Source: Cymbidium sinense
Taxonomy: Eukaryota > Streptophyta > Magnoliopsida > Asparagales > Orchidaceae
Assembly: GCA_021442155.1 (NCBI GenBank)
Contig: CM038225.1
Coordinates: forward strand, 87,680,925 to 87,744,924
Length of the DNA stretch: 64,000 nt
Direction of reading: 5' to 3'
Positions 350 to 62,534 of this stretch are shown one piece after another (position 1 is the first letter of the stretch; each line of letters starts with the position of its first letter). The notes under the pieces are model-generated. The model saw nothing but the letters and a program-made list of their open reading frames with translations, did no database searches and had not been told where the DNA came from. A program made the position numbers and the translations under genes.

Positions 350-3300
350 TGTGGTGTTTTTATTTTATGAGAAGGTTGGACACCACGTAGATCCATAGGT
401 GTACTCATTAGGGTGATCATGCATGACATTGAGGAATGATGTAGTATCTTGAGAAACAGAAGTCACAATCCTACAATGGACCTAATCACCTAATAAGGTC
501 TCCTAAGGCCAATGGGTCTTTGAATGTACCAGAGATCTTTCCTTTACTTTACATGAAAAAGTAAAGTTGGGTTAATTTTAAACCAGGTTTGTTAAGTTCC
601 CTATGAAGGCAAGCCCCCATAGTTAATTACATCCTAAGGAATGAGATTCTTTAGGAATACTCTCAATTAAGGTAAATGATCATTGTCTCTAATGATTTCA
701 AAGATAGGACTATCAATCAATTGATTATTTTTAGAAAATCAAGTGGGAGTGAGAAGAAGGAGGGAGTTATTATTAAAACTAAAGGAAGATGAGTAGATGA
801 TGCTCATGATACTAGAAAACCTAGTGAGTATTCTGAACTATCTTATGGTTGGGCTTTATACATTTCAAATTGAGAAAATTTATTTATTTGAGTTGAAATT
901 TTATTAGAAATCTTAGGCTTACAATTCCACAATACAAGATCGTGGAAATGCCTAAGAGGTGAGGATTTATGCTTATAGGCTGTGAAGGGAAATAACAACC
1001 TTAGATCCTAAATCTAGGGAGCTTTGGTGAGGGACAAAGCACGAGCTAAATCTAAGGAAAAAATGGGTATATGGTTTACCTCCATAAGAGAGAATAAATC
1101 ACGTGACTGTTAGACTTACAATCTCCTAGGGGTAGCCGCCAACTAACTCTTCCTACGATTTTGAACACATGTAGGTAAGTCTTATGATTTGCAAGATGGC
1201 TAAATTGTTGTTTATTTAGAAAGGATACTATGTCCTTAATCATACTCCCAAAGAGACTAGATCATGAAGGACATGAATAATGACCTTTATAATGCAAACT
1301 TTGTTAAATTTTATTTTAATTTTTGGACAATGTTATTTCATATAGGCTATTGGATTTCATATGCCTAATGCATGAGTAGATTGGTTATGTCCCAAAATCA
1401 TAAAGAAGGAGGTGTGTTTCTACCATGGCTCTCAAAGGTCAAGCCATTTTCTCTAGCAAGGTGGAAGCCCTCCATTAACAAGAGTGAAATAATATGATTT
1501 ATGCATGATGTGAGGCATACAACATCCAACTAAGGAGTTGCTAAATCTTTTATTGTCTTGATTTATGTCCTAGGAATTAGGTGAGGTTATGAGTTGTTTA
1601 ATTTAATTTGATTTAATTAATTAGATAGATAATTTGTTTTTTCCTAAGATCCTAATCGCATCCAGCCATTCATCAAATAATAAAGAAATTAGGAAAATCA
1701 TGCCATCCTAATTGTGCAATCATAAACAAAATAACAATCAATTCATAAAATTAGCGCAAAAGAATAAGAGGTCGATGTGGTCGGGCTCCACCACACAAAC
1801 CCAAAAAGGAAAATGGGTAGCTGACCTCTGCCCTTATACAACCCGGATTACAAATGAATAATTATAATTAAACAAAATTCATGTTATGGGGGTCTTCATT
1901 CTTTATTCTTCATTCTTCATTTTGATTTGCTTCTTTTCTTTCTTCCTTTTGGCTTTATTGGAATATGGTTGCTCCAAAGACATCACATGGTGCATAAGAC
2001 TTGGTCTTTTGACCAATGTTCATTCTAATCTCCAATAACATTCATTCCAAATCTTAATTATAAAATTTACATCAAAATGGGAAAGGTGAATCTAACTAAA
2101 CCAGCAAAATAAATGTTAGTTAAACATACAACACAACCAAAGCAGTTATATGAATAAGTTGGACTTAGCACCCCACACATAGGTAACCAAGCCCACTTGT
2201 CCTAGTTTGGATTATTCTTAAGGGGTATAAGCCACCTACACAATAAGAGCATTTATATTTTTATTACAGCGCCACTTAAGGACAATCCTTTATAGAAGAC
2301 ATGATTAGGCTAAGGTCATCCTATCATCCAGTCTACAACATACACCCTATCATCTAGTCTAAAAATATTACATCATAAAATAAAATCAGGCATCAAACCA
2401 TGTATCGCCCTAACATAGAGCTAGAAATGGTGACTTAGCCTAATGTGTGTGCTATTTAAGGCTTGTGTGGCATGTCTTAGCTAGGCTTTAAGGTTGAAAT
2501 TTTCTAAGTGTGAAAGATTCAATTTAGTGTTGATTTTAGTTTAAGTGGTTTAGTTAATTTATCAATTTTAGTTGGTGATTTGATTTAGTTTGAATGAACC
2601 TACACTTAGAGACTACATTTGTGAAGAGAAGAAAAGAGAGGGAACTTTCTTTCATCCCTACCTTAAGGCATTTCTAAGATAGATTCATTAATGAATTTTC
2701 TTTAGTAAATTTTTTAATATGTATTTTTATTAGTCTTAAGTTTAGATTTACTATAAATAGTCTTCTTCAACAAGAAAGGCCACTAAGGATTAGTTAGGGT
2801 GAATTACTATCACATAACGCACACCCATTCATTTCTTTCCACCATGTATGTCATGCATAAGAATCATCCTAAGCATACCAGTACATGCAATGAAAATTTT
2901 AGCACACTTTGATGATGAATGCAAAGAGATATGGTTTGAAATTTTGAATATTCCATGAATGCATGTCTTTATTTTGTTGAAAAGAGGGATTTCTCATCGA
3001 TTAATTAAATGCACATCCACATGTATAAAAGATATAAGTGAGTATGGTGCAATTATTTTCTACACCAGGGGCATAAGGCACAAGACCTACTTTGGGCTAC
3101 TTAAAGCCTCACAGCCCTGAGATGTCTAGACTAATATACCACTTTTCTTAAATATATGTAAATGTACAAAAAATAAATGGATGAAGAATCATGCAAATGA
3201 TTATGTTTGATTTGGTTGAATAATTTACATGTGTAAATGTGAAGATCTTTCATTAAGTCATAACATAGAAATGTATAGGAAGAGATTTAAGCAAGTGTTG

Positions 3301-3869
3301 TGCTTTTTTCAAATAAACTATACACTTTGCATATCCTATTCAAATCTATGTTAAGAGAAGAAAAGAAAATAATATAATACACATCTTATGCTATACTCAC
3401 ATGCAAGCTTATAAGTACTTATAAGTAGTATCACTTCATTTATAATCTTTGATTTATAGGTTTTTAAAATAATTTTTGGTTTAATAGTGATAATGGCCAC
3501 TCATATTCTTAACTTTAGCCAAAACATGCTACTTGACATAAAAGAAAACATTTTTATTTAATTGAGGTTTCAAAAGAAATGAATAAATGATTTCATATGG
3601 GAAACAAAATTTAACATGCTTGATAAGAAATAAAAGAATGTAAGCACATGACTTCATTCACCCTAATTACTTCCTAAGGATAATCATATAAAATGGGATT
3701 ATTTAAAATGAATCAAAATTCTTTAAAGAGATTTTTATTTTTTGGATTTGATTTGACTTAGGAAATATGAAAAGGGTTTGCTGGTCCTAATCCATTTCCC
3801 CTATGTGTGAATTGTTTTAGTTTAATTTTAGAACAATCAGATTGATTTTATGTTTTGTTTAGGTTAATG

Positions 3870-4740
3870 TATGAATTAAATCCATTAATTATGCATTACC
3901 TATACCACTTTAACATAATTCTCTAAACAATTATGAGCCAACACATGATATGCAATCAAATAGAAATTAAATTAGCAATGCACCTACTAAATAAAGGGGC
4001 CTAATGAATTGGCTCATAATTATTGGTTAATTAAGCTAAAGGGTTTAATTTAGTACTTTTATAACCCTCCTACACATGTAGTTTGGTTATAATTTCCTTT
4101 GGAAGCCTCTTAGGTTATTGAACACCTAAGAATATACCCAAGAATTAAATGATTAAGTTCTGGAATGATTTAGTTAGGAGTTTGATTAATTGAATTAATT
4201 AATGAAGTGATTAAGCCATTAATTAATTACAACTTAATTAAGTGTTTTCCAAATGAAATGAACTTAGGGGAAAAAATTGGAAAAGAAGACCTAATCTTAT
4301 TCCCTAAGTCCATTCACTATTTAATGATGGTTAACAAGCTATATTAATGAATTTATCACTATTTAACATGTTAATTAATCATTTAATTAACTAAGAAAGT
4401 GATTAGGGATGAAACAAGAAATTACCCTAATTAATCAAGCAATAAATTTTAAGAAAATCATGGGAGGCAGAGGTCATTCAACTAATTAATCTCAGAAAGT
4501 TTGGAGTTAATTGCCCAATTAATTAAAGAGTAATTAGCTTAATTACATTTCTAATAAAACTTAAATTGAGTTAAAATCACTATTCAAAATTAATTAATTT
4601 TAATTTTCTGTTATTCTTCTCTGAATAATCTTTAAAATGAACCTGAGTTTCTATTTTTTTGGATTTTTTCTATAATTAGTTATAAATTTTGGAAGTTTCA
4701 ACATTAAAAATGAATTAATTAAGCCTAGCTAACCCCCTAA
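3870..4740. repeat. TTAATTAA-rich AT belt in LTR A
   Basis: Very AT-rich stretch with many overlapping TTAATTAA and ATTAATTA words. It is conserved in LTR B (about 23990-24820), LTR C (about 37060-38080) and LTR D (about 52480-53500). It falls in the presumed R-U5 half of the LTR. No gene is seen in it. Matrix-attachment-like behaviour is possible from composition but not shown. Confidence 0.5.
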
Positions 4741-4786
4741 TCATGTCGCCATTGGTTGGATGACACATTGAAGCTGCACTTTCCAT

Positions 4787-4800
4787 GGTTATTTAAGTTT
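4787..4800 (-). promoter_or_regulatory. Candidate TATA-like core promoter element, LTR A
   Basis: Plus-strand GGTTATTTAAGTTT, which on the minus strand reads AAACTTAAATAACC, a TATA-like A/T core. The block is kept in LTR B (24886-24900), LTR C (38137-38150) and LTR D (53564-53578) in the same setting: beside a GC-richer island and about 4.4-4.6 kb from the left LTR end. If real, the minus-strand transcript would start slightly left of it, giving a U3 of about 3.2 kb. Position and conservation are seen; the promoter role is inference. Confidence 0.3.
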
Positions 4801-6032
4801 CATCCCTTTACAAAATGTATTTCTCCATGGTCCAGATCTAAGATGGGATTAATCCCATGATTTAGGTTTAAATCAGATGGGATCTAACATGATCTAATCA
4901 CAGCCGTCCATTCCAGTTTCATAGAACGGATGACATGTGATCCTTCTCCTTTATGAGTGATGATTATTTGTCTCTCCCCATTCAATTCAAGCTCACCTGA
5001 GCTCAGATTAGGATCAAAATGATCCCACTCCTTTGAAAGGAGGGGGATGCACATCCAACGATCAAGATCCAATGGGGTGACACATTTCTTCAAAAAAGGA
5101 CTAAGCAAAATTTCCTAAGGCTACAATTTCGAGCAATTACCTCGCTGGAGGGTATCACTAGTGCTTCCAATAGAGAAGGTAGCTTCACTTTGTAGAGATG
5201 AAGCCCAATTGAAGGAATTAGATCTTGGTTTGGAGTGGATTGCTTGGTTGACCAAGCTCTCCTTCAATAGTGATCGACCTTGATCAAGGTGATGCTTCCC
5301 GTGGCATGAATACTTGGGAAATGACTTGGTTGAGCTTGATGAAGTCCATTGATGATGTGTGCAAGGTTAATTTGGTTTTGATGGAGAATTGAGTGAGTTG
5401 GGATTGGGATTGACCTCCCTTGTTTCAGCTTTGAGCAAAATAGAGAAGGAGAAATGGGGGAGCTCGGGAATGGCTTGCCAAGGCATGGAGAAGCTTTATT
5501 TCAACCTCCTTGGCTCTATTGAAGTCAATGCTTATGGTTTGAGTGAGAATGAGGGGGAGTATATCTCCCCCTCCTTGGATCGAACAGTGATGAGCTGAAT
5601 TGCCATTTTTGTTGAATGGTTAGGATTGGGTTCATAGTTTGAGCTATAAAACATCCCATATGGGTCATTTTGAGTAGTGGAGGGAAGGAGAGTGAGCGCC
5701 CATGTGCTATGTGAGTGCATTTGGTGATCCAAGTGTCCAATTTTTATTGGAGGGGTTGAATTGGCCTTGGCTTGGGTTATGGCCTACCCAAACTCATTGG
5801 GTGATGTTCACCACCTCCCTTAGTGCCTATGTGGACTAATGGGAGGATTCCAAGTGTCCTTAAGAAAGAAATGACCAAATTCTAAGTGAATATGGTCATA
5901 AGATACCCTTTGACCTAAGTTCAATGTGGTCATTTGGCCATGATTTTGATTTGGGAAGATTTGAAATGATTTGTAAGTGGGTTGGATAAATTTCAAGTGA
6001 TTTGGACTTCATTTGATTTGATTTGGCTCAAT

Positions 6033-7016
6033 TTGACCAATTTAAGTCAAGTTGGGTCAAATTGGGTTAGGTTGACCAATTGGTTAAATTGGTCAAACCA
6101 TGAGTTAGGTCAAGTTCAAATGATCGTTTGGAGCCTACGATTATCATTGGCTTGGTTCAATTTGGTTTAGAATTGGGTTTGGTTCATTTAGGTTTATTTG
6201 GGTCAAATGGGTCAAGTTGACCAATTTGACCCATTTGACCCAATTGGGTTAGGTCATGGGCCCGTTTAGGCTTGGTTGATCATTTGAAATGTATTGCAAG
6301 CTTTAGTTTCAATCAATTTTGATTTGGTTTGATTTCAAGTTGATTTGACCTTTTAGGTCAAGTTGGGTTCATGGTCAATTGGGCTAGGTTGGGTTTAATT
6401 GATCAATTGAAGCTTTAGTCAAGTTCAACAGTCAATTTGGAATGAATTTGACTCATTGGTTGCAATCATTTTAACTTAGATCAAGATTTGACCCATTTTG
6501 GCTTTTTAAGTCAATTTGGATCAACTTATGTCAAGTGGCCAATTAGGCTTGGTTTGGCTTAATTGATGGCTTCATAATGTTCAATCATTGATTATGGATT
6601 AGTTTAGATCAATGGTTTTAGTCAATTTAGCTTATTGTAAATTTTGGCTTGTTTAAGTTTCAATTGGGCTAAGTGTTGACTTGGTCAAAAGCTAAGTTTA
6701 ACTTGGTTTGACCCAATTTGAGTGATTGATCATCCTAGGATGATTGTTGCTCACAATGTGAGGCTTAGATGGGCTTAGTTTAATCCAATTTGGGTTGGAT
6801 TAGAATTTGGATCAAAAAGGTCCTTTAGGCCACTTTGGGTCAAGGGAGCCTAAATGGGTTAATTGGCTTGATCAAGGCTTGATATAAGTTTGGTTGAACT
6901 CACATATAGACTTATGATGGAAATACAAATCCAAATGCAAGTGATTTGGAGTCAAATGTGTTTTGATTCATTTAGTAATTTCAAGTCAAAAGGGTGAGAA
7001 CATGGGTTTGACTTGG
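6033..7016. promoter_or_regulatory. TTGAC/GTCAA (W-box-core) cluster in presumed U3 of LTR A
   Basis: I counted 28 TTGAC or GTCAA words here on the two strands, many extended to TTGACC or GGTCAA, and several arranged as facing pairs. TTGAC(C/T) is the known core of the WRKY-bound W-box. The same belt is present in LTR B (about 31080-31990), LTR C (39370-39970), LTR D (54840-55390) and weakly in the solo LTR (about 30520-30560). It lies on the U3 side of the candidate core promoter. It may instead be a low-complexity expansion with no regulatory role. Confidence 0.35.
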
Positions 7017-7500: not shown

Positions 7501-7599
7501 AGTCCATAAGATGAAATCAAAGGCTTAGGAAAGATTTTGGGATTTGAATTTAATCATGGGTTTCAATCATTTGATTTGGAATCGATTCATGATTTGGAT

Positions 7600-7765: not shown

Positions 7766-8015
7766 GATTTAAATTTGAAGTTTGACTTGAAAGAAAGAAG
7801 CAAGGATTTGGTTCAAGCTATAGGGTAAGAAAGTCCTCCTAATACCCATAAGGCATAACCTATTCCTATGGCTAAATCCTCTAAGTCTTTAGAGTTAGGT
7901 TAAGTGTTCACCTAATCACTATAAGTGTCTTAAGACTAAGGAACTCTTAGTGTCTAGAGGTGTCCTATGTCTAAGATAGAGAAGTTGAGAGGTCACTCTA
8001 AAAGTGAGATCAACA

Positions 8016-10914: not shown

Positions 10915-12070
10915 GATTTTATGGGTAGTATTTCTTCAAATAGAGTCCATTAATTGGAAGCATCAGGTGTTCCCCTTTACAATCAATAAGTTGATAAGAT
11001 CCTCCTTGGTAGGTCTTCTCTTTGACAAAAGGGCCTTCCCAAGTGGGATCAAACTTGCCTCTTATCTTTCGACGGGCAATAATTGCTCTTCTTAGAACTA
11101 AAACAAGCTCTCATACTTGAAAAGCTCTAGGGCGGACTAGCTTGCTTTGAGCTTGAATCATCTTGGCTTTGTATAACTCGAGGTTCTGGCATGCCCGTAG
11201 GCGTCTCTCCTCTAAACCTTTGAGATCTTCTAACTACAACTTGGCTTTCTACTCTGTAGTGATTTTGCTACACATTGCTATCCTTAGTGATGGGAACTGA
11301 ACTTCCAATGGTAGAATGGGGTAGATTGAGTTGGAGTTCTATATGCCCATGCTCAAATGTATTATCTTTAGTATCTAGATGAGAGTTTTTTGAATGTTGC
11401 TAGGGTCATTCAGGATAGTAGAGATGGAGTATCTCCAATATATATCATGTCTTCTAGCAAAGCTATTAATTTTTGTGCTTTTGAATGCAGTACCATTATG
11501 GAATATAATTCATCGAGGCACCCCCGAACCTATATATGATGTGGTTCCTGAAAAATTGGAGCACATGCTGAGCTGTGACCTCTCTGAGTGGGATTGCCTC
11601 TGTCCACTTGGAAAAGTAGTCAGTGACAGCTAGGATGAATCGATGACCCTTAGAAGACAGAAAATCAATAGGACCCGCTATGTTGGTACCCCAACACTCA
11701 AATGACCATGAGGCCAATATAGGATGTAGAATGTTGGGTGGTTGATGTAGGACCACACCGTGTACCTGACATTGGTGGTATTTCTTAGCTACATTCATGC
11801 AGTCTATAATCATTGAAGGCCAGTAATATCCTAGTCCTTGATCTTTACTTTCATCTTCGGACCAAATTGATGCACTCCGCATAGACCTGAATCTACCCCG
11901 GTCATGATCTTATGAGCTTTGTGTTTGTCTAAATAGCGTAACTACATTTGATCAAAAGATCGTTGGTATAAGGTGTCATCCACGAGATCATAAGAGAGAG
12001 CTCTCTGTTTCATTTGATGGGCTTGTGAATTCTCTTGAGGTAGTTTTTTCAAGTCAAGTAACCTGTGAAT
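10915..12070 (-). pseudogene. Integrase (broken), element 1
   Basis: Integrase inserts the cDNA into the chromosome. Reading right to left, an N-terminal part near 11980-11850 has LYQRSFDQM, then LCGVHQFGPK, the pre-core region typical of Tat elements. The open stretch 11496-11882 (128 codons) has CQVHG from the zinc-binding domain, then the catalytic core with FILAVTDYFSKWTEAI. The first catalytic Asp, usually in WG-x-D-I, is Asn here (WGTNIAGPI). A second, stop-broken part at 10930-11290 gives RRLRACQNLELYKAKM and the C-terminal signature GKFDPTWEGPFVKE followed by GGSYQLID. Stops and frame changes separate the parts, so it is inactive. It follows the second RNase H, as in all Ty3/gypsy elements. 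Confidence 0.85.
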
Positions 12071-12690
12071 GGTTTCCTCTAATCCAGCTCCTCATCCTTT
12101 TCGGCAACCGCAACCTCCCTTTTAACAGAATGTCTCTCGATGAGTTCAAAGTCAATAAAGGGTAGGACTTGTCTATTTTGGACCCTTATTGGAATGGAAT
12201 CATATTCTGGACATGCCAATTCTTTGGCAAGTTTGGCCAAAGCATTTTCCATGGCATTCTATCCTCGAGGGACCTCATAGATGGTGATCTCAGGGATTTG
12301 GGTTGATAGTTTCTTGGTTTACTCATGGAAATGAGAAAGCTTAGGTTTTAGAACCTTATAGATCCCAACAATATGGTTGATGACCAGCTGAGAATCCCCA
12401 TAGATATTGATGCTTTTGACACACACTATAATAGCTAACTCCAGACTGACAATCAAAGCCTCATACTCGGCTTCATTGTTGGTGCATGGATTGGAGAAAT
12501 AGTATGAGAATCTCATCATTTCGTGGTCTGGAGTTAAGTGGATGATTCCTACCTCTACTTTTCGTGGAAGAGTAGATCGTGGTTCTTCTCCTTTTTGGAA
12601 GGAAGCTGCACCATCAAAATACATCTCCTTGTAGTGATTATCAACCTCCTCTAAGTTCATGATTTGTTCATCAGGGAGATCGTCACTAAG
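12071..12690 (-). pseudogene. Second (archaeal-type) RNase H of Tat pol, element 1
   Basis: The extra RNase H domain between the RT-linked RNase H and integrase defines the Tat clade. The stretch 12319-12660 (113 codons) shows three of the four acidic catalytic positions: Asp in YFDGAAS, Glu in NNEAEYEAL, Asp in IYGDSQLV. After a stop, the frame resumes at 12315-12240 with NAMENALAKLA, where family members normally have ADALAKLA; the fourth acidic residue has become Asn. Beyond it lies a linker to integrase with ELACPEYDSIPIRV. The domain is recognisable but cannot be made as one protein. Removing the RNA strand of RNA:DNA hybrids is the family activity. Confidence 0.85.
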
Positions 12691-12811
12691 TGGAGAATCA
12701 GTAAAAAGTGGGTGTGCTGCTAAGAAATCTGTTAGTGCTTATTCTTTCACCACAACAGAGAGGTACGAATGTAATATTGAACTACGAGAGAATCATGGAC
12801 CAACATGCCAA

Positions 12812-13414
12812 TCATCCGGATAACGTTGGCCGTGTTATGAGATACTGCATTGGTTTGATTCTTGATATCAAGTTTACCTTATGAGAAAGCATGTAGTGTC
12901 GTAGCTTTTGGGATGTAAAGATTAAAGCTAGGCAATATTTCTCAATAGGTGGGTAGTTTGCTTTAGCAGGGATCACATGATGGCTGAGGTAGTAGAGAGT
13001 GTTCTCCTTGCCTTCATCATTGGTTTGGGTGAACAAAGTGCCAAGGGAGTCATCCAATGCAGTAGTGTAGAGTATTAGTGGCTTGCCCGGGATAGGGGCT
13101 GCTAGAACTGGTGGCTTCACCAAAAATTGTTTGATGCCTTCAAAAGTATGCTGACACTTATCATCCAACTTGAACATAGCATCCTTTTTGATAAGTGCTG
13201 AAAATGTCTTGCATCTCCTTGATAGGTTGGATATGAAGCATCTTAGATATGCCAATCGCCCTTGGAATGATCTAAATTGGGTTAAACTTTTAGGGGGTGG
13301 CATTTCTAAGATAGCTTTAATCTTTTCTGGTTCTATCTCTATTCCATGGTGTTGAACAACAAACCTAAGGAGCTGCACTAAAACTAGTCTGAATGCATAC
13401 TTCAGAGGGTTCAT
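12812..13414 (-). pseudogene. RT thumb/connection plus first RNase H, element 1
   Basis: A 200-codon open stretch that directly continues the RT catalytic core at 13415-13990. It starts with NPLKYAF and HHGIEIEPEKIKAIL, the conserved end of the Ty3 RT domain. KSLTQFRSFQGRLAYLRCFI and the tether CQHTFEGIKQFL follow. The gypsy-type RNase H starts with GKPLILYTTALDDSLG, where the first acidic residue is expected, and runs through YYLSHHVIPAKANYPPIEK and ALIFTSQKLRHYM. A frameshift near 13415 breaks the link to the catalytic core. Between this block and the second RNase H (12690-12812) is decayed linker. Confidence 0.85.
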
Positions 13415-13990
13415 TTTTAGATTGAATTATCTTAACCATTCAAAACTACTCCCAAGTCAAAGAGATGGTCTTCCTTTTCTTTACTTTTGACTACTAGATC
13501 ATCAACATAACATTCAATTTGATGATGAATGAGTTCATTGAAGATCTGAGTCATGGCCCACTGGTATGTAGCACTAGCATTTTTAAGGCTGAAATTCATG
13601 GCCTTATAATAATAGATTCTGATCGGGGTTTAAAAAGTAGTATTTCTTTCATCCTCAAGGGCCATCTTTATTTAGTTTTGTCTAGTTGTCCCATCCATAA
13701 AAGAGAATAATGTATGAGATGAGGTGATGTCCACCATTAATTCTGGTACAGGAAATGGAAATTTATCCTAAAGACATGCCTTATTTAAGTCCCTTTTCAT
13801 AATTGGGATGACAATGGCTAACCAGGTAGGATATTTTTCTTCTCTGGTAAAACCATCATCGATCAATTTCTAGACTTCAGAAATGACCTATTATTTGATT
13901 TCTAATCACATGCATCTTGGAGCTTGCTTGATAGGGATAGCATTAGGGTTTATTGCCAATTTGTTGACTGCTACATTAGGAGATAATCCA
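13415..13990 (-). pseudogene. Reverse transcriptase catalytic core (broken), element 1
   Basis: The RT copies element RNA into DNA. Reading leftwards from 13990, the pieces are YEDMPGLSP, then PIKQAPRCM, then EKYPTWLAIVIP, then RDLNKACL, FPFPVPELM and FSFMDG (first catalytic Asp), then SLKNASATYQ and the active-site box YVDDLVV at about 13495-13509, then SKEKEDHLFDL. The order and spacing are those of Ty3/gypsy RT, but several stops and at least one frame change interrupt it. Element 2 has YADD in the same box, so YVDD here is a substitution in this copy. The plus-strand frames overlapping this block are mirror images without support. Confidence 0.85.
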
Positions 13991-19904: not shown

Positions 19905-21310
19905 TTGAGTTTAGAATCTATTTTCAACAAATTTGTGTATATTGAAAGTGGGTTCAAATATTTTGAAAGATTTTTGATGCTTCCATTGGTTCATATTTGA
20001 ATTTGATTTTTATGTTTGGGGACCCATTATTTAACAAATTTGAGTATGTTAAATAGAGGGTCATTTGATTCTGTTCTAGATTACTCATTTAGCAATTTTG
20101 GGTATGCTAAATGAGGTGTTTGAAAATAATTTTTTTTTACTTGTTTGCCCATGATGTGTATCATGTGTTAATTTAGAAATGAAATCTTTACTTAGCAAAT
20201 TTGTGTATGCTAAATAAAATCCAAATCTAATTTTGATTTTGATTTTGAAAATGGGATCTTTACATAACAAATATGTGTATGCTAAATAAAGTCCAAATGT
20301 GTTTGATTTTTTGTTCTTTTGAAAGTGGGATCTTTACTAGAAAATTTGTGTATGCTAAATAAAGTCCAAATGTCTTTGATTTGAAAAATGGGATCTTTAC
20401 TTAACAAATTTGTGTATGCTAAGTAAAGTCGAAATATATTTGATTTTTGTTTTGATTTGAAAAATGGGATCTTTACTTAGCAAATTTGTGTATGCTAAGT
20501 AAAGTCCAAATGTATTTGATTTTTTTTTTGATTTTGTGTTATTTTTGAAAAGAGGGATTTCTATTTAACAAACATGGTGTGTTAAATGGAATCCAATTTA
20601 TTTTAAATTTTCTTTGGAAAAATGAAACTCTCATTTGACACATTTGGGTATGTCAAATGGAATTCTAATGTATTTTCATACTCATGATTTTTGCAAAGTA
20701 GATTTCCATTTAACAAATTTGGGTATGTAAAATGGAAGTCAATTTTTATTTTTATTTTTCAAAGATGAAATTTTTGTGTGTGATTATTGCTTTTTTAAAA
20801 GAAGAAAATTCCAACTTTAGCACATGTGAAATGTGTTGAGTGGAGTTTTAAATTGTGTGATTTTGTTTGAAGATAAAGCCTCCTTTCAATAAGTTTGGAT
20901 ATATTGAATGAAGAGGCTTATCTTTAAATTTGTAATTTTTGCAAAGGGAAAATCTCCAACTTTAACATATGTAAGATATATTGAAATGGAGTTTCAATTT
21001 TATGATATGATTTTATTTAGAAATGGAATCTTCATTCAATAAATTTAGGTATATTGAATGTGGATGTTCATATGTTCTTTTTGAAAGATGGTTTTGATTT
21101 TATTTGGAAATGAAATCTTCATTCAATAAATTTGGGTATATTGAATTAGGATGTTCATATGTTCTTTTCGAAAGATGATTTTGATTTTATTTAGAAATGA
21201 AATCTTCATTCAATAAATTTGAGTATATTGAATGAGGATGTTTATATGTGCTTTTTGAAAGATGATTTTTTATTTTGATTTTGAAAAGATCCTACATTTA
21301 ACAATTTGGA
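19905..21310 (-). repeat. Tandem stem-loop array in the leader of element 1
   Basis: About 17 imperfect units spaced roughly 60-95 bp. Each has a 9-13-bp inverted repeat around a loop of the type AATTTGGGT. Stem sequences vary but stay paired: CTCATTTAGCA with TGCTAAATGAG (near 20085), CTTTACTTAGCA with TGCTAAGTAAAG (near 20470), CATTTGACA with TGTCAAATG (near 20627), CATTCAATA with TATTGAATG (near 21030 and 21207). Between stems is a T-rich spacer with TTTGATTTTGAAAATG. It lies between the PBS and the coding region, so it would be in the 5' leader of the genomic RNA. Elements 2 and 3 have equivalent arrays. Confidence 0.8.
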
Positions 21311-21521
21311 AGATTATTAGATGAGGTTAAGTTATATATATTTTTTGAAAATTTTTGTGCAAGCATTTTATTGTGTGAATTTTGGAAAAGTGCTTTTGAA
21401 AAGTGATATTTTTTATTATAAAGGATTTATTCTTTATTATTTTTGGAATGAGCTTTACCTTACCATAGGGCTAGCAAGAAAAAGGTCTTTAGTCATCTCT
21501 TTTTATTAAATTTTGTTTTCA

Positions 21522-21722: not shown

Positions 21723-21741
21723 ATCCCCAGCAGAGTCCCTA
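21723..21741 (-). promoter_or_regulatory. Primer-binding site, element 1 (decayed)
   Basis: On the minus strand this reads TAGGGACTCTGCTGGGGAT, 8 nt from LTR B. It differs at two positions from TGGCGACTCTGCTGGGGAT, the kind of PBS known from Ogre/Tat elements and complementary to the 3' end of a tRNA-Arg. It fixes the transcription direction as right to left. Confidence 0.7.
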
Positions 21742-21749
21742 GAAAAATC

Positions 21750-24700
21750 TATGATAATTTTATTTTGTGAGAAGGTTAGACACCACGTAGATCAACAGGT
21801 GTACTTATTAGGGTGATCAGGTATGACATTGAGGAATGATAAACTATCTCGAGAGATGGAAGTCACCATCCTACAATGGACCTAATCGCTTAATATGGAC
21901 TTTTAAGGCCAATGGTTCTTCGAATATACCAAAGATTTGTCCCCTACTTTACATGGAAAAGTAAAGTAGGGTTTATTTTAAATCGAGTTTGCTAAGTTCC
22001 CTATGGAGAAAAGCCCCCATAGTTAATTACATCCTAAGGAATACTATTCTTTAAGAATACTCTCAATTAAGGTAAATCATCATTATTTTTAAAGATTTAA
22101 AAAATAGTACTATCAATCAATTGGTTATTTTTAGAAAATCAAGTGGGAGTGAGCAGAAGGTGGGAGTTATTATCAAAACTAAAGGAAGATGAGTAGAGGA
22201 TGCTCATGATACTAGAAAACCTAGTGAGTATTCTAAACTACCTTATGGTTGGGCTTTATACATTTCAAATTGAGGAGATTTATTTATTTGAGTTGAAATT
22301 TTATTAGAAATCTAGGCCTTACAATTCCACAATACAAGATTGTGGAAATGCCTAAGAGGTGAGGATTTATGCTTGTAGCCCACGAAGGGAAATATCAACC
22401 TCATATTATAAATCTTGGGAGCTTTGGTGAGGGCCAAAGCACGATCTAAATATAAGGCAAAAAAATGGGTATATGGTTTACCACCATAAGAGAGAATAAA
22501 CCACCCGACTGTTGGACTAACAACCTCCTGGGGGTGACCGCCAACTAACTCTTCCTACATTTTAAATATATGTAGGCAAGTCTTATGCTTTGCAAGATGG
22601 CTAAGTTATTATTTATTTATAAAGGAGACTAAGTCTTTAAACACACTCTCTAAGAGGCTAGATCATGAAAGGCATGAATAATGACCTAATCTAATGCAAA
22701 CTTTGTTAAGTTTTATTTTGATTTTTAGACATTGTTATTTGAAACAGGCTATGAGATTTCATATGCCTAATGCATGAGAAGATTGGTTATGGGCCAAAAT
22801 CAAAAATAAAGAGGTGTGTTTTAACCTTGGCTCTCAAAGTTCAAGCCATTTTGTCTAGCAAAGGTGGAAGCCCTCCATTAATAAAAGTGAAGCAATATGA
22901 TTTATGCATGTGTGAGACATATAACATCCAACTAAGGGGTTAATAAATCTTTTATTATATTGATTTATGTATTAAGCTTTAGGTGAGGTTATGAGTTATT
23001 TAATTTAATTTTGAGTTAATTAATTAGATAGAAAATTTATTTTTCCCTAAGAGCCTAATCGCATCCAGGCCATTCATCAAGCAATGAAGAAACTAAAAAA
23101 AATCATGCCATCATAATTATGCAATCATATATAAAATATCAATCAATTTATAAAATTGGTGCAAAAGAATAGGAGGCCGATGTGGTTGAGCTCCACCGCA
23201 CTAACCCAAAAAGGAAAATGTGTAGCCAAGCTATACCCTTATACAACACGGATTACAAATGAATAATTATAATTAAACAGAATTCATGTTATGGGGTTCT
23301 TCATTATTCATTCTTCATTCTTCATTTTGATTTGCTTCTTTTCTTTCTATCTTTTGGCTTGATTGGAATATGGTTTCTCCAAAGGAATAAATTTAAGCAA
23401 GTGTTGTGTTCTTTTCAAATGAACTATACACTATGCAAACCCTATTCAAATCCATGTTAAGAGAAGAAAAGAAAGTAACATAATACACATCTTATGCTAT
23501 AATCACATGTAAGCTTATAAGTACTTATTAGTAGCATCACTTCATTCATAATCTTTGATTTATAGGTTTTAAAAATAATTTTTAGTTTAATAGTTATAAT
23601 TCTTACACATATTCTTAACTTTAGCCAAAACATGTAAATTGACATAAAAGGAAACATTTTTATTTAATTAATTTTTTGAAAGAAATGAATACATGATTTC
23701 ATATGGAAAACAATATTTAACATGCTTGGAAAGAAATAAAGGGAAGTAAGCACATGGCTTCATTCACACTAATTACTTCCTAAGGACAGTCATATAAAAT
23801 GGGATTATGTAAAATGAATCAAAATTCTTTAAAGAGAATTTTATTTTTGGATTTAATTTGACTTAGGAAATATGAAAAGGGTTTGCTGGTCCTAATTTAT
23901 TTCCCCTATGTACAAATTGGTTTAGGTTAATTTTAGAATAATTAGGTTGATTTTATGCTTTATTTAGGTTAAAGTATGAATTAAATCCATTAATTATGCA
24001 TTACCTATAACACTTTAACATAATTATCCAAATAATTATGAGCCAACATATAATATGCAATCACATGGAAATTAAATCAGCAATGCACCTAAGAAATAAA
24101 GGGGCCTAATGCAATTGGATCACAATTATTGGTTAATTAAGCTAAAGGGTTTCATTTAATGCTTTTATAACCCTCCTACACATGTAGTTTGGTTATAATT
24201 TCCTTTGAAAATCTATTAGGTTATTGAACACTTAAGAATCTACCTAAGAATTAAATGATTAAGTTCTGGTACCAATTGTTAGGAGTTTGATTAATTGAAT
24301 TAATTAATGAAGTGATTAAGCCATTAATTAATTATAACTTAATTAAGTGTTTTACAAATGAAATGAACTTAGGGGAAAATATTGGAAAAGAAGTCCTAAT
24401 CTCATAACCTAAGTCCATTCACTATTTAATGATGGTTAGCAAGCTTAATTAATGAATTTATCATTATTTAACATGTTAATTAATCATTTAAATAATTAAG
24501 AAAGTGATTATGGATGAAATAAGAAATTCTCCTAATTAATCAAGCAATAAAATCCATGAAAATCATGGGAGGCAGAGGACATCCCACTAATTAATCTCAA
24601 AAAGTGTGGAGTTAATTACCTGATTAATTAAAGAGTAATTAGCTTAATTACATTTCTAATAAAATCTAAATTAAGTTAAAATCACTATTTAAACATAAAT

Positions 24701-27700
24701 AACTTTAATTTTCTATTTTTCTTCTCTGAATTATCTTTAAAATGAACCTGATTTGTATTTTTTTTGGATTTTCTACAATTAGTTATGAATTTTAGAAGTT
24801 TTAGCATTAAAATTATTAAGCTTAACCCCTAATCTGTCGCCATGTGGCGGTTGGCCGTGCGCTTTTCACATGAAATGATGGGATATGTTATTTAAGTTGT
24901 CACATCCGCTTACTGAGTTAGGATGGTGGACGTGCTTTCTCTAAAGGTTGTATGATCTTAAGATCAGGTTGCTAAGATTAATCTCATGATTTAGGCTTAA
25001 CTTAGATGGAATCTAGTGTGATCTGTCTCATTCCAATCATGTGGAGCCGGTGATCCTTGTCATTCATGAGCAGCGAGAGAGATGAAGTTCATCTCTTATT
25101 CATGAGCTAACCCAGCTCTTGGGATCAAAATGATCCCACACCTTCAAAAGGAGGGGGATGCACATCCAACAGTCAAGATCCAATGGGGTGACACTTTTCT
25201 TCAAAAAGGACCAAGCAAAATTTCCTAAGGCTATAGTTTTGAGCAATTACCTCATCGGAGGCTATCACTAGTGCTTCCAACGGAGGAGGTAGCTTTGTCT
25301 TATAGAGATGAAGCCTTGTTTCAAGAATTGGATCTTGGTTTGGAGTGGATTGCTTAGTTGACCAATCTCCCCTTCAATGGTGATCAGTCTTGATAAAGGT
25401 GATGCTTCTTGTGGCTTGGAGACTTAGAAAATGACTTGGTTGAGCTCGATGAAGCCCACTGATGTTGTGTACAAGGTTAATTTAATTTTGACATAGAATT
25501 AAGTGAGTTTGGATTGGGATTGACCTCCCCTATTTCAACTTTGAGCAAATTCGAGAAGGAGAAATGGGGGAGCTTAGGAATGGCTTGCAAGGCTTGGAGA
25601 TGCTTCGTTTCAACCTCCTTGGCTCTATCAAAATCAATGCTTATGGTTTGAGTGAGAATGAGGTAGAGTATATCTCCTCATCCTTGAATCGGATGGTGAT
25701 GAGCTGAATTGCCATTTTTGATCAATGGTTAGGATTAGGTTCACAGTTTGAGCTACAAAACACCCCATGTGGGACATTTTGAGTAGTGGAGGGAAGGAGA
25801 GTGAGTGCCCATGTGTTTGGTGATCCAAGTGTCCAATTTCCATTGGAGGAGTCAGTTTGGCCTTGGGCTAGGTTATGGTCGACCCAAGCTCATTGGGTGA
25901 TGTTCACCACCTTCCTTGGTGCCCATGTGGACCAATGGGAGGATGCCAAGTGGCCTTGAGAAAGAAATGACCAAATTCAAAGTAAATTTGGTTATAAGAT
26001 ACCCTTAGACCTAAGGGCAAAGTGGTCATTTGGCCATGATTTTGACTTGGGTAGATTTGAAATGATTTGATAATGGGTTGGGCCAAATTTCAAGTGATTT
26101 GGACTTCATTTGATTTGATTTGGCTCAATTTGACCCATTTAGGACAAGTTGGGTCTGTTGGTTTTTTTTTCTCTCTAATGGAATAGAGAAAAGAAATGAC
26201 ACCACATAGAGTTTAGGAATATTTTATTTAGATGATCAAATATGATATTAAGGAATAAACATATTATCTCAAAAGATAAACATGCTTTCCTGTAATGGAT
26301 TCAATCATTTTAATAAAAGACTCCTAAGGCTAATGGGTCTTTTGTTACTAAAGTATTTTCCCCTGAACTACATAGAAAAGTAGAACAGGGTCAACTTTAT
26401 CTTAGGATCCTGGTTCCCTATAAAGGCAAGCCTCTATAGTTAATTACATCTTAGGAAGAGTCTCTTCCTAAGAATACTCTCGATTAAAGAAATAAGTGGT
26501 TATTCCTAAAGACTACTAAGGTAGCTTTCAAACGATTGGTTTTTGGAAATTCAATTGGGAGAGGTCCAAATTGAGAGAGTTATTTTAATATTCAAAGCGA
26601 GTAAGAAATTTCTATTGATCTTGAGATGCCCAGACATTTCATCTATCTTATGATTGGGTTTCAAATTTGGGATTTAATTTTAGATTTCAAGTTATCATTT
26701 TCTTAGAAATCTAGGACTTAGATTCAGTGACAAGATTGAAATGCCTAGGGTTGAAGACTTATTCTAAAAGGATGCTTCCTAGTCTACAGGTGCTTTTAAC
26801 ACATGTCAGATACTCGACCTAGTTCTATTCTTGGAAATCATTGGTCGTTCTCTTCACTTGAAGGAACTAACCTATCCTTGACTCTTCTAGGCTTACAAAC
26901 TGCCTGGAGAAGGCTGCCAGCTAACACCACCTAATCATATTTTAAAATCATGAGGCTAAGTCATATGAATGCAAGATGGATGGGCTGTTATAGTTTTAGG
27001 AAAGAAATCTATGAACCTAGACTTACTCCCTAACCCCTAAGATTATGTAGGGTATAAAGATGTACTTAAATAATGCATATTTTTCAAATTTTATAATTTT
27101 GACCCAAGGTTCATTTTAGGCCATAGGAATGCAATTTATGCCTAATGCTTGCAATTAGAAAAAGATCATGGAACAAATCAAAATAGAAGAAAGCGTACTT
27201 CCATCATAGGCTCTCAAAGGTCAAGCCAAGGTAAAGATGAGATTCCTTCATTAATCAAGAGTGAAACAATATGTTTATGCATGACATCCAGCTAAGGGGT
27301 TGCTACATATTTTATCTTGTTTTAATACCTAGGCTTTTATGCAAATATTATGAGTTGTATTTATTTTTATATTTCATTTGATTTAGTTGGGTAGAAAATT
27401 TAGATCCTATCAGCTCGTGCATACATCAGACAAACATAGCAGAAAAAAAAACTTAAGAAAAGCATGTTGTTTCTATTACCCAAAATAAATCAAGCCAAAT
27501 TAAATTATATAAGAAAAATGGCAATATCATGCTTGTTGTACACCAGGAAGAGAGAAAATTATAGAGTTAGCCCTTATACAACCTAGAATTATAAGTTTAG
27601 ATCTATGGGTCTTCTTTCCGGGAAAGTCTCCTTGGACATCCATCGGCTCTACAGGGGACCACCGCACCATCTCCTGGTTGGGTCAACTCCTGCTAATCCT

Positions 27701-44999: not shown

Positions 45000-45521
45000 T
45001 CACCTTATGAGAAAGCACATAATGCCAAAGATTAAAGCTAGGCAGTGCTTTTTAATATGTGGATAGTTTACCTCAACAGGGATTAGATGATGACTAAGAA
45101 AGTAGAGTGCATTTTCTTTCCTTTCATCATTAGTTTGGGCCAACAAAGCATTGAGGGAGTCATCTAATGCGGTAATATATCGTATGAGCGACTTTCCCAG
45201 GATAGGGGCTGCTAGAACTGGCGGTGTCATCAGATATTGTTTAATGTCTTCAAAGGCATGTTGACACTTATCATCCCACTTGAACTTGGCATCCTTTTGG
45301 ACAAGTTCTGAGAATGAGTAACTCTTTGATAGGTTAGAAATGAAGCATCTAAAATATGCCAACCACCCTTGAAATGATTTGAGTTGAGTTAGACTTTTAG
45401 GGAGTGGCATTTCTAATATCTTCTTGATCTTCTTCGAATCAATTTCTATTATACGGTGCCAGACAAAAAACCCAAGGATTTTCCCTAAATATACTTCGAA
45501 AGCGCACTTCAAGGGATTCAT
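45000..45521 (-). pseudogene. RT thumb/connection plus first RNase H, element 2
   Basis: A 173-codon open stretch: NPLKCAFEVYLGKILGFFV, EIDSKKIKKIL, SLTQLKSFQGWLAYFRCFI, then CQHAFEDIKQYLMTPPVL, then the RNase H start GKSLIRYITALDDSLNALL and ALYFLSHHLIPVEVNYPHI. It matches 12812-13414 of element 1 and ends earlier by a stop. It continues the RT core (45534-46130) after a small break at about 45525. The RNase H is lost after about LALIFGIM. Compared with element 1 it is slightly closer to a typical RT sequence (GKILGFFV retained). Confidence 0.85.
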
Positions 45522-45533
45522 TTTAAGGTTAAA

Positions 45534-46130
45534 TTATTTTAACCATTTAAAAACTACTCTCAAGTCAAAGAGATGGTATTTCTTTTCTTTATTGTTGATT
45601 ACAAGATCATCGGCATAACATTTGACTTGATGATGAATGAGTTCATTGAAGATCTGAGTCATGGCATGCTGATATGTAGCGCATGTATTTTTAAGGCCAA
45701 AAGGCATGGACTTATAGTAATAGATTCTGATTATGGTTTGAAACATAGTGTTTCTTTTATCTTCAGGGGCCATCTTTATTTGGTTATAACTAGATGAGCC
45801 ATCCATAAAAGAGAAGACTGCATGAGATCAGGCAATGTTCACCATCAGTTTTGGTATTGGTAGTGGAAATTCGTCTTTTGGACATGCCTTATTTTGATCC
45901 CTAAAATTGACTCATATGCAAATTTAGCTATTCTTTTTCTTAACTAGAATGACACTAGCCAAACAGGTAGGGTATTTTTCTTTTCTGATGAAGCCAGCAT
46001 AAATCAATTTCTTGACTTCAGAAATGACATGCTATTCAATGTCTAATTGCATATGTCTAGGAGCTTGCTTGATAGGGTTAACACTAGGCTCTATTGCTAG
46101 TTTGTGACTACGTCAGGAGATAAACTTGGC
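45534..46130 (-). pseudogene. Reverse transcriptase catalytic core, element 2
   Basis: The best-preserved RT in the window. Upstream part (about 46100-45810): PIKQAPRHMQLDIE, HVISEVKKLIYAGFIRKEKY, ASVILVKKK, FRDQNKACPKDEFPLPIP, with a few stops. The open stretch 45534-45806 (90 codons) starts in FMDG (first catalytic Asp) followed by SSSYNQIKMAPEDKRNT, then SMPFGLKN and the active-site box YADDLV (about 45602-45617), then KEKKYHLFDL. This is a clear Ty3/gypsy RT palm. Stops upstream and the break at 45525 show that it is no longer functional. Confidence 0.87.
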
Positions 46131-48757: not shown

Positions 48758-48835
48758 CTGTGTGGTGTCCCTTTCCTTTGATTGCTTCAATTATTATTAC
48801 TTGATTTTATCTTTTGATCTTGAGTCAGAACACAT

Positions 48836-50690
48836 ATTTCAACAATTTTGGTTATGTTGAATGGGGTTCAAATTGCTTGGAGAGATTTGTAGAATTGGAG
48901 GAGAAGCTTTTGTCTTGATGTTGACTTGAATTGTTCATTTTGATTTATCTTTTTGAATTAGAACCCTCATTTAACAAATTTAGATATGCTAAATGGGATT
49001 CTATTGGAGAGATTTAAGATGTGAGGAGAGACTTTGCCATAAGATTTTGATTTAGAATCCATACTCAACCAATTTTAAGTTGGTTGGGCAAGGTTCAAAT
49101 ATTTGGAGAGACTTTTGGAAATATTTGTATTTATGTCTTGTTTGAAATTTTGATTTGGAAAACCTTTATTTAGCAAATTTAGGTATTCTAGAAAGGTTAT
49201 GATTATTTGTTTGAAAATTTTGTGAAAACATCTTTGCTTGTGAAGATTGGTTGTGTGTGATATATGTTGCTTGATTTGAAAGTGGGGCTTCTTACTTAAC
49301 AAATTTGGTATGTTAAGTAGAGGACAAATGTGTTTGAAAATGAGACTCTCACTTAACAAATTTGGTATATTAGGTGGGAGCCAAATGTGATTGATTTGTA
49401 TTTTGAAAATGAGACTCTCACTTAACAAATTTGGTATGTTAAGTGGGAGTCAAATGTATTATAATTTGTGAATGAGATTCTTTCTTAGCAAATTTGGTAT
49501 GTTAAGTAGGAATCCAATGTGATATGATTTAAAAATGAGACTCTTACTTAGCAAATTTGGTATGTTAAGTGGGAGTCAAATGTGATATGATTTAAAAACT
49601 AGATTTTCACTTAACAATTTTTGTATGTTAAGTGGGAATCAAGTGTGATTATGGTTTGTGTTTTGAAAATGAGACTTCACTTAACATATTTGTTATGTTA
49701 AGTGGAAGCCAAATGTGATTGATTTGTTTTGAAAAATGAGACCTACACTTAACAAATTTGGTTTGTTAAGAGGAAGCCAATTGTGATTGATTTGTTTTTG
49801 AAAAAGAGGCTCACACTTAATAAATTTGGTATGTTAAGTGGAAACCAAATGTGATTTGATTTGCGTTTTGAAAATGAGACTCTCACTTAACAAATTTGGT
49901 ATGTTAAGTGGGAGTCAAATGTGTTAAGATTTTTGAAAATGAGACTCTTACTTAACAAATTTGGTATGTTAAGTAGGAGTTAAGTGTATTATGATTTCAA
50001 AATGTGACTCTCACTTAACAAATTTGGCATGCAAAGTAGGAATCAAGTGTGATTATCATTTGTGTTTTGAAAATGAGACTCTCACATAACAAATTTGGTA
50101 TGTTAAGTGGGAGCCAAATGTGTTATGATTTATTTTATTATTATTATTATTTCTTTTTTGAAAATGAGACTCTTACTTAACAAATTTTGTATGTTAAGTA
50201 GGAGTTAAGTATATTTATGATTTTTTTGAAAGAGAGGAAATCTATTTAACAATTTTGGGTAAGTTAAATAGAGTTCAATTTTTTTTTTTTTTTTGACTTT
50301 TGGAAATAGGACACACATTTGACAAATTTGGGTATGTCAAATGGAGTCCAAAATATGTCTTAATTTCATGTGTGTGAATTCTTGCTTTTGAAAAGAGGGA
50401 AACTTCAACTCTAGCATATTTGAAATATGTTAAGTGGAGTTTCAATTTTATGCTATGATTTTATTTGAAAATAGAATCTTCATTCAACAAATTTGAGTAT
50501 GTTGAATGGAGGTGATCATTTTCAAAAGTGTGCTTTTGAAAAAGAGAGAAACTCCAACTTTAGCATATATGAAATATGTTAAGTGGAGTTTCAATTTTAT
50601 GCTATGATGTTATTTAAAAATAGAATCTTCATTCAACAAATTTGAGTATGTTGAATAGAGATAACTATTTTCAAAAAGATGTTTTAAAAA
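48836..50690 (-). repeat. Tandem stem-loop array in the leader of element 2
   Basis: About 25 units, mostly spaced 60-70 bp. The dominant unit has arms TCTCACTTAACA and TGTTAAGTGGGA around AATTTGGTA (for example near 49345, 49414, 49880). Variants keep pairing: TCTTACTTAACA with TGTTAAGTAGGA (near 49944 and 50170), CATTTGACA with TGTCAAATG (near 50312), CATTCAACA with TGTTGAATG (near 50490), CAACCAA with TTGGTTG (near 49070). Homogenised units in the middle and diverged units at the edges suggest recent tandem expansion. Confidence 0.82.
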
Positions 50691-50959
50691 ATGATTTTTA
50701 TTTTGATATTGAAAAGCACCACCATTTAACAATCATGTGAATTTTTTGGTTATATGAGTTTTGTGATTGTTTGAAAGTTTTCTTATGAATTTTGTGCAAG
50801 ATCTTTTATTAAGTGAATTTTGAAAGAGTTCTTTTGGAAAGTGACATTTTACAAAAGAGTTTATTTCTCAAATATAAGATGAACCTTACCTCACTAAGCT
50901 AGTGGTAAAGATGTTCTAAATTTTAGTCATCAACTTTTATTAGTTAATTTTATCTTTCA

Positions 50960-51045
50960 CCTATTGGGAGACCCAATAGGGGTTTCATGACCTACAAGGA
51001 GTGAGGCCATAAAATCTAGAGGATGTTGGCTAGCATTGCATACCA
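50960..51045 (-). promoter_or_regulatory. Conserved leader hairpins, element 2
   Basis: Hairpin CCTATTGG...CCAATAGG (50960-50980) and the following GACCTAC...GTGAGGCC pair, equivalent to 21522-21577. Sequence resembling the leader ends at about 51045 (GGATGTTGGCTAGC) and is followed by rearranged DNA instead of the PBS. Confidence 0.5.
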
Positions 51046-51247
51046 CACTGATTTGAGGGTGGTCATTTTCAACAAATTTGAAAATAGAATCTTCATTCAA
51101 CAAATTTGAGTATGTTGAATGGAGGTGGTCATTTTCAAAAGTGTGCTTTTGAAAAAGAGAGAAACTCCATTTTACTAAGTGAATTTTGAAAAAGTGCTTT
51201 TGGAAAGTGACATTTTACAAAAGAGTTTATTTCTCAAATATAAGATG
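51046..51247. other. Rearranged leader duplicate replacing the PBS, element 2
   Basis: After GGCTAGC the expected leader is replaced by CATACCACACTGATTTGAGG. Then come second copies of leader pieces: 51080-51170 repeats about 50465-50555 (including one stem-loop unit), and 51171-51247 repeats about 50805-50882. The segment then joins LTR D at its base 2340. The first 2.3 kb of the LTR and the PBS are gone. Confidence 0.65.
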
Positions 51248-61164: not shown

Positions 61165-62120
61165 TTAGACCCTCATTTAACAAATTTAAGTATGCTAAAT
61201 GGGGTTCAATTATGTGTTGGAGAGATTTGGGAGATTTGGAGGAGAGACTTTATTGAATTTATTGTTGAATTTAATTTTGATGTTGGAACCCGCATTCAAC
61301 AAATTTAGCTTTGTTGAGTGGGGTTCAATCCATGTAGTAGAGATTTGTTTATGTTGATGGTATTATTTGATTTTGATTTATTGGAACCCTCATTTAACAA
61401 ATTTGGGTATATTAAATGGGATTCAATTATATGTGGGGTGATTTTGATCATTTGGGTTGCTATTTTTTTTGTTGGAGTTTGATTTTGATTTTGATTTTGA
61501 TTTTAAGTTGGAATCCACATTTATCAAATTTAGGTATGCTAAATAGGATTTTAATTGTATGTTTGAAAATTTTGAAGGCTTTTGTTTTGTTTGATGTGAT
61601 GTTTGATTGTTATATGTTGATGTTTGATGTTGATTCAGTTTTGAAAATGAAACTCTCATTTAATAAATTTAGGTATGTAAGATGGAGTTCAATTATATGT
61701 TGATTTATTGATGTGTGATTTTGTTTTAATTTTGAAAATAAGTCTCTCATTTAATAAATTTGGGTATGTTAAATGGAGTTAAATTGTATGTTGGTTGTTG
61801 TTGGTTGATGTTTAATTTTATTTTGATTTTGAAAATGGGATACTCATTTAACAAATTTGGGTATGTTAAATGGAGTTGGTTAATTTTGTTTGAAAAGGGA
61901 GTTTGATATATTTGAAGAAGAGATTTGTTGTTGTTGTTTTATTTAATTTTGATTTTATATTGGAATCTACATTCAATAAATTTATGTATGTTGAATGAGG
62001 TTCAATTATTTTGTTAAAAAAAGGGTTTGAAAATTTTCTAAGAAAAGATTTTACTTTTATTTTACTTGACTTTGATTTTAAAATAGAACCTTCACTTAAA
62101 AAATTTTATTATGTTAAGTG
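61165..62120 (-). repeat. Tandem stem-loop array in the leader of element 3
   Basis: About nine units spaced roughly 80-130 bp. Examples: CCTCATTTAACA with a partner in ATTAAATGGG (near 61390), ACTCATTTAACA with TGTTAAATGGAGT (near 61842), CATTCAACA with TGTTGAGTG (near 61293), CATTCAATA with TGTTGAATG (near 61970), TTCACTTAA with TTAAGTGAG (near 62093). Loops are of the AATTTGGGTA type. Fewer and more widely spaced units than in element 2, with the same basic design. Confidence 0.78.
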
Positions 62121-62312
62121 AGGTTCAAATGATTTTGTTTAGAAGAGGCATTTGAAAATTTTTGAAAATGATTTCATTTATTTTGTTTTGGATGTTATTG
62201 GAATTTTCTTAAATATGAGATGAACCTTGCTCCACCAAGCTAGTGGTAAGAGGTTCTAAATTTTATTTGGTTTATGTTTGATTATTTTCTTTTTTTAGTT
62301 AATTTATCATTA

Positions 62313-62515: not shown

Positions 62516-62534
62516 ATCCCCAATAGAGTCGCCA
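62516..62534 (-). promoter_or_regulatory. Primer-binding site, element 3
   Basis: On the minus strand TGGCGACTCTATTGGGGAT, eight bases from LTR E. From memory of the plant tRNA-Arg(ACG) 3' end plus CCA, the expected complement is TGGCGACTCCACTGGGGAT, i.e. two differences, both C to T. Ogre elements are known to use tRNA-Arg. This is the best-kept PBS in the window. Confidence 0.75.

Follow-up and report, generated by a model that had tools for sequence, protein, structure and literature searches.

To our knowledge, little is established about the way in which the RNA of plant LTR retrotransposons is chosen for packaging. In better-known systems, hairpins such as those of the MS2 type and the retroviral Psi signal are recognized by coat protein or nucleocapsid. 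No plant packaging signal is named in the available part of a review (PMC12786077). In the plant pararetroviruses CaMV and RTBV, as in the elements described here, a structured leader lies upstream of the main ORFs, and the packaging signal of CaMV is exposed on a stem-loop of this leader, where it binds the coat protein (PMC5902531, available part). Among the Ty3/gypsy retrotransposons, the Tat clade is recognized by an additional RNase H (aRH) beside the RNase H linked to reverse transcriptase (RT), and its Ogre/Retand part by the location of this aRH between the RNase H and the integrase (PMC6317226, available part). A described Tat-clade element likewise carries family-specific internal tandem repeats of unassigned function, and the main text of the paper reporting them contains no words beginning with "hairpin" or "stem". 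Here we describe arrays of small hairpins in the leaders of Tat-clade elements from Cymbidium sinense, identified in a stretch of 64,000 nucleotides (hereafter, the window) of its 3.53 Gb genome and compared with related copies elsewhere in that genome.

Hairpin arrays in the leaders of Tat-clade elements

Broken Ty3/gypsy elements have left several pol fragments and no fewer than three leaders in the window, and those identified lie on the minus strand. The 5' LTR of element 1 (21758..26155, minus strand, edges approximate) was delineated by blastn with the left copy, at 85-88% identity. The same method identified the 3' LTR (358..6058, minus strand), which is interrupted at approximately 1980-3276; this left LTR is broken by about 1.3 kb relative to the right one. 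A primer-binding-site-like 18-mer with two mismatches (0.01 expected by chance) adjoins the LTR edge at 21724..21741 on the minus strand. A second one, also with two mismatches and on the minus strand, was found in element 3 (62517..62534), and the search for a primer site in element 2 returned none at up to three mismatches.

The pol fragments of element 1, with broken reading frames, follow each other on the minus strand in the order RNase H, aRH and integrase. The RT-associated RNase H fragment (12812..13426) matches PF17919 and PF17917, and the second RNase H (12319..12738; PF13456, PF00075) is identified by its position as a Tat-type aRH. The integrase fragment (11496..11909) was assigned through relatives carrying PF00665 and PF17921, its direct Pfam matches being weak (E 0.035-0.036). 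The PF13456/PF00075 domain hence sits beside the PF17919/PF17917 domain, as described for the Tat clade, and between RNase H and integrase, as described for its Ogre/Retand part. Protein comparison placed the nearest relatives of the RNase H fragment in Dendrobium, and the named nearest proteins were mostly from orchids (Dendrobium, with Phalaenopsis among the integrase matches). Plant-like Tat RNase H fragments are also encoded by protein records labelled as Klebsiella pneumoniae, probably reflecting plant contamination of bacterial assemblies. In element 2, Pfam searches identified RT (PF00078) and RNase H (PF17919) fragments at 45000..45827, on the minus strand. No gag domain was identified, and a scanned subset of ten short minus-strand ORFs, all of them fragments, gave no Pfam matches at E<=0.1, whether to gag or to the plant mobile domain of the extra ORF found in 57% of Ogre elements (PMC6317226, available part). 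Further tandem repeats are present between the integrase and the 3' LTR of element 1 (7107-7766, periods 182 and 36) and at 32149-32679 (periods 179, 35 and 18); those at 7107-7766 are strongly strand-skewed and contain one weak plus-strand match to the hairpin model introduced below (7409-7440, E 0.02).

A covariance model (R1), trained on 30 units of the window that therefore match it by construction, delineated three arrays on the minus strand at E<=0.01, and no other minus-strand match was obtained in the window at this cut-off. Array 1 (19917..21327), also delimited by its repeats, comprises 16 hairpin units with a core of 36 nt each. It immediately follows the primer site and precedes the pol fragments, its sense strand being the minus strand, and it was therefore assigned to the leader of element 1. 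The initial annotation of this DNA, which had postulated about 17 tandem units in the leader of a Tat retrotransposon, is borne out by these 16 model matches, by the primer site and by the aRH. Array 2 (48831..51125, 22 units) was designated as the putative leader of element 2 on the basis of its likeness and of its place beside the RT fragments, and array 3 (61170..62124, 9 units) lies in the leader of element 3. A piece of leader 2 (51050-51240) containing one hairpin unit (51090-51125) appears to be a duplicate, displaced to the LTR side. Searches against Rfam 15 yielded no matches at the gathering score across the window, and the best sub-threshold matches in array 1 scored 22.4 and 20.1 bits.

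In sense orientation, the left and right arms of each unit enclose a loop reading TACYYAAATT (10 nt) or TACCAAATT (9 nt), and among 262 exact-loop units pairing is strongest over the first 9 pairs, declining further out. The arm cores listed originally (AGCA/TGCT, AACA/TGTT, GACA/TGTC and CAATA/TATTG) are present, as are the ACTTAG/CTAAGT and ATTTAG/CTAAAT arms. The loop had been read on the plus strand, and this reading had to be corrected: because the minus strand is the sense strand of the element, the transcript loop is UACYYAAAUU, not AATTTGGGTA. The linkers between units are poor in G (6.9%). Units were located by exact loops, after dropping a fuzzy-loop search that mixed 9-nt and 10-nt loops and returned random AT-rich matches. 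The search for hairpins by stem alone in 20 arrays identified 215 instances, 94 of them with 10-nt loops. These loops read TACYYAAATT, with eight fixed positions each showing one base in 82-97% of cases (77-91 of 94) and with positions 4 and 5 varying among C, T and A. Loops of the form TAY N1-2 AAA were found in 100 of the 215 stem-found hairpins inside arrays and in 5 of 157 outside (103 and 9 with a laxer pattern), contrasts that are partly circular, since the loop motif had served to define the array boundaries. Roughly half of the array hairpins found by stem carry a different loop, in many cases a short one due to chance.

Exact matches to the primer site numbered 501 in the genome, and the first 30 were used to sample the distribution of the arrays. 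At 19 of these loci, at least 360 nt just downstream of the site align with a window leader, and hairpins were detected in all 19. Within the 1.5-4.7 kb covered, thirteen of them present at least five exact-loop units, and the other six each have at least two sense-strand hairpins at E<=0.001 when rechecked with the model; at locus L052, at least three hairpins carry the loop TAATCAAATT. The remaining 11 loci comprise nine with short leader matches (35-232 nt) and two with none, and among them a single model match was obtained (locus L050, E 2e-4), the other ten having none. The presence of hairpins at every leader-sharing locus and their near absence from the others indicate that the array is associated with a single leader family. 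Intact homologous elements lacking the palindromic unit had been named in the initial annotation as a counterexample; no long leader homologue without hairpins was encountered among the 19 of this 30-locus sample. At least five exact units were also present at 12 of the 20 loci of a held-out set.

Paired variation of the stem arms

The suggestion that the two arms of the stem change together was assessed on the full set of 35 exact-loop units in the three window leaders, using 500 arm shuffles and slid-partner controls, and paired change was found to exceed both. Paired cells amounted to 80.6%, against 73.3% in shuffled arms (0/500 reaching the observed value) and at most 43.7% with slid partners. 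The excess of paired substitutions over shuffled arms that had been called for was likewise present, with 63 cells changed on both arms against 29.7 in shuffles (0/500) and at most 16 in slid controls, and the score was 0.380 against 0.242 and at most 0.160, respectively. Changes on both sides affect 11 of the 13 pairs, a number reached by 4/500 shuffles, and further pair types numbered 22, compared to 19.6 in shuffled arms (22/500).

The analysis of genome copies was based on 262 exact-loop units, chosen by loop only and including some random matches, from 33 of 38 sources (the three window leaders and 35 loci). For pairs 1-13, the Watson-Crick excess over the product of marginals in these units was 549 (slid controls, -76 to 75), and three tree-simulated nulls of 300 runs each (900 in total) never rose above 129. 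The excess was 444 in the 212 units left after removing 50 units of five loci fetched by a perfectly paired pattern (slid, -70 to 52), and 284 in the held-out set of 20 primer-site loci, 15 of which contributed 139 units (slid, -64 to 44). When stem types present in at least two loci were each counted once (n=42), 290 of 336 cells were Watson-Crick paired (mean 236 and maximum 256 in 2000 shuffles), and 11 of the 42 types were perfectly paired, against a mean of 2.0 with shuffled arms. For the 20 types present in at least three loci, 139 of 160 cells were paired (shuffled mean 108.9, maximum 124) and 6 types were perfect, which 5/2000 shuffles reach; in both sets, one type is evidently not a unit and is removed by a pairing filter.

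Tree-based tests yielded mixed results. On a tree built from non-stem columns, the pairing likelihood was 98.1 log units in register and at most 18.5 with slid partners. On two stem-inclusive trees, the in-register values of -2.7 and 9.0 were not above the slid controls (up to 18.7 and 17.7). Paired variation as envisaged in the initial annotation, which had advocated a phylogeny-aware covariation test, is hence recovered against the nulls simulated on three trees and by the likelihood on the non-stem tree, and is not recovered by the likelihood on the two stem-inclusive trees. The per-pair G statistic, evaluated against a parsimony null, gave a weak and partly negative outcome. Pairs 3, 5 and 12 stand out (reached by 2, 3 and 1 of 200 nulls), pairs 1, 6, 10, 15 and 16 are unremarkable (68-154 of 200) and the remaining pairs fall at 6-51; same-branch double changes were on the whole without excess under this null (pair 1: 7 vs 2.2 expected).

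Close copies were compared by matching units through their flanks, which gave 92 mutual-best pairs from the 366 of 401 units with a neighbour. Among these pairs, double changes occurred in register at 0.0426 per cell, showing no excess over off-register comparisons (mean 0.0374, maximum 0.0444). Watson-Crick pairing was kept in 16 of 51 double changes, and single steps between Watson-Crick and T.G (74) were matched by those between Watson-Crick and A.C (73). We read this independent change of the arms as neutral decay of dead copies, superimposed on old paired variation. The negative outcome on stem-inclusive trees and the independence of close pairs together indicate that the paired variation is old, and they do not fix the number of independent compensatory events. 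The earlier proposal that the folded form was selected while the element was active is thus consistent with shared stem types, which respect pairing (290/336 against 236), and draws no support from close copies or from the stem-inclusive likelihood.

Since close copies change independently and the stem-inclusive likelihood does not exceed its controls, some weight must be given to two processes that would operate without lasting selection on the fold, founder inheritance and hairpin self-correction. Under the first of these, which we consider rather unlikely, a few early palindromic types would have been amplified by array turnover and retrotransposition, so that the pairing would reflect few old events. 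The disappearance of the signal on stem-inclusive trees and the independent drift of close pairs are in line with this scenario, as is the marked amplification of some types, such as ACTTAACA/TGTTAAGT, which accounts for 41 of 401 units. It is, however, at odds with the frequency of perfect pairing among shared types (11/42 against 2.0) and with the nulls simulated on stem-inclusive trees, which fall short of the pairing excess. Founder inheritance alone leaves unexplained why so many types arose perfectly paired.

Folding strand and candidate role of the arrays

Folding was evaluated for 20 arrays, over up to 900 nt from the start of each, with 25 dinucleotide shuffles. The mean z-score of the folding energy was -10.4 for the sense and -5.1 for the antisense strand. 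The sense value stands out because the sense background is weakly structured (-104 vs -178 kcal/mol for shuffled sequences of array W1), whereas in absolute energy the antisense strand, being rich in G and U, is the more stable one in 20/20 arrays. In single units, which are not independent of one another, sense RNA is more stable in 141 of 228 and antisense in 84. The strand skew is equally strong in the 3' non-coding repeats, and the low-G sense strand is therefore not special to the hairpins. At locus L055 (1-800, sense on the minus strand), well downstream of a long array, the composition turns abruptly to G over C (C-G skew -0.67, -0.83), as from a low-complexity insertion.

Wobble pairs provide a second line of evidence on the folding strand. 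Genome-wide exact-pattern counts at pair 7 were 12,089 for T.A, 38,488 for C.G, 44,706 for T.G and 1,513 for C.A, the latter against approximately 5,600 expected from the margins. Counts of G.T and A.C at pair 3 were 10,502 and 5,710, and those of T.G and C.A at pair 5 were 1,546 and 1,246. At all three pairs tried the counts lean to the sense strand, and they are inflated by amplified types. At the level of stem types, the first set showed 15 vs 5 in shared and 82 vs 82 in private types (13 vs 4 and 62 vs 39 after the pairing filter). With held-out loci added, the values became 14 vs 9 and 79 vs 57 (p=1); the asymmetry did not replicate, and its use as proof of sense RNA was withdrawn. In a fitted model, the two wobble terms are equal on the non-stem tree (both 0.51); a second tree gives 0.37 for T.G and 0.50 for A.C, an order that speaks against sense RNA. 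The strand evidence is hence only suggestive of RNA over DNA, with sense RNA as the better guess for the folding molecule.

Taken together, a fixed loop, a variable paired stem, many copies, weakly structured linkers and a location by the primer site make up the anatomy expected of protein-binding hairpins in genomic RNA. We tentatively propose that the leader arrays of these Tat-clade elements form hairpins in the sense RNA and that these are repeated protein-binding sites, most probably for the element's own Gag in RNA packaging. Packaging by Gag is our first choice because signals of this kind are generally known to sit here in retroelement RNAs, as documented for pararetroviruses (PMC5902531, available part). 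In such a mechanism the loop would stay fixed and the stems would merely present it, so that they may change while still pairing. Many copies would confer avidity and a buffer against the loss of single units, and mispairing between units would be prevented by the low G content of the linkers. Once inserted, the copies would be dead and drift without regard to pairing. We infer that the hairpins fold in the cell, as sense RNA, and that selection acted on them while the element was active; which protein binds them, and packaging as the step that they serve, are a guess.

Other roles for the folded RNA seem to us unlikely as a group, with export and translation being the close rivals to Gag packaging among them. 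The arrays could serve as a nuclear export motif array, as a scaffold for ribosome shunting or landing, or as double-stranded RNA for or against silencing. Stems of 13 bp are short for Dicer, which counts against the last of these. The arrays contain approximately 8.6 ATG per kb, making plain scanning doubtful if they are part of an mRNA, and in plant pararetroviruses both shunting and export benefit from a structured leader (PMC5902531 and PMC12786077, available parts), but shunting in those viruses uses one large stem and not many small hairpins.

Self-correction of the hairpins, in which one arm would template the other during reverse transcription or replication and changes would be copied without selection, appears quite improbable. 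This process would yield perfect new types and a symmetric loss of both kinds of mismatch, as fitted on the non-stem tree. Against it stand the close pairs, which lack an excess of double changes, and the amplified T.G at pair 7, which speaks against frequent correction; moreover, it explains neither the conservation of the loop nor the imbalance between T.G and C.A at pair 7. We regard as similarly doubtful a function at the DNA level, with the palindromes acting as cruciforms or protein sites in the double-stranded leader, for instance as a transcription or recombination element. Palindromy is indeed strand-symmetric, and type-level wobble in the full set shows no difference between shared and private types. 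The orientation of the loop, however, is fixed (139 exact loops in sense and 15 on the opposite strand in held-out stretches), wobble counts across the genome tend to favour the sense strand, and a double-strand binder would be expected to conserve the sequence of the arms rather than their pairing. A chance tandem repeat is ruled out by the slid-partner controls.

Comparison with described systems

Beyond repeated binding sites for Gag, it is conceivable, and we put this forward with more reserve, that the arrays constitute a multivalent RNA code, in which up to about two dozen leader hairpins with the same loop and drifting paired stems would be read by Gag or by a host RNA-binding protein. 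If this were the case, the approximately 97,000 units of one stem class in a single genome would be among the most abundant plant RNA motifs known. A constant loop on very many natural stem variants amounts to ready-made mutagenesis, providing a direct way to test for the reader of the leader. The arrays also represent a case of transposon tandem repeats seemingly constrained by folding, beyond unequal exchange alone. Among the titles and abstracts listed in searches of an open-access library, none dealt with hairpin arrays in the leader of a plant retrotransposon, and a prior description is possible in subscription papers on Ogre, Grande or Retand.

The arrays resemble MS2-type hairpins and the retroviral Psi signal in presenting a fixed loop on a variable stem, the binding of a protein being a prediction in their case, and they differ in a far higher copy number per RNA. 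The repeats of the described Tat-clade element lie downstream of pol, whereas the arrays reported here are located in the 5' leader and are composed of hairpin units with covarying arms and a fixed loop. Likewise, the leaders of CaMV and RTBV form one large stem-loop with a single signal (PMC5902531, available part), whereas those of the Cymbidium elements contain rows of small, similar hairpins, with 9-22 model matches per leader.
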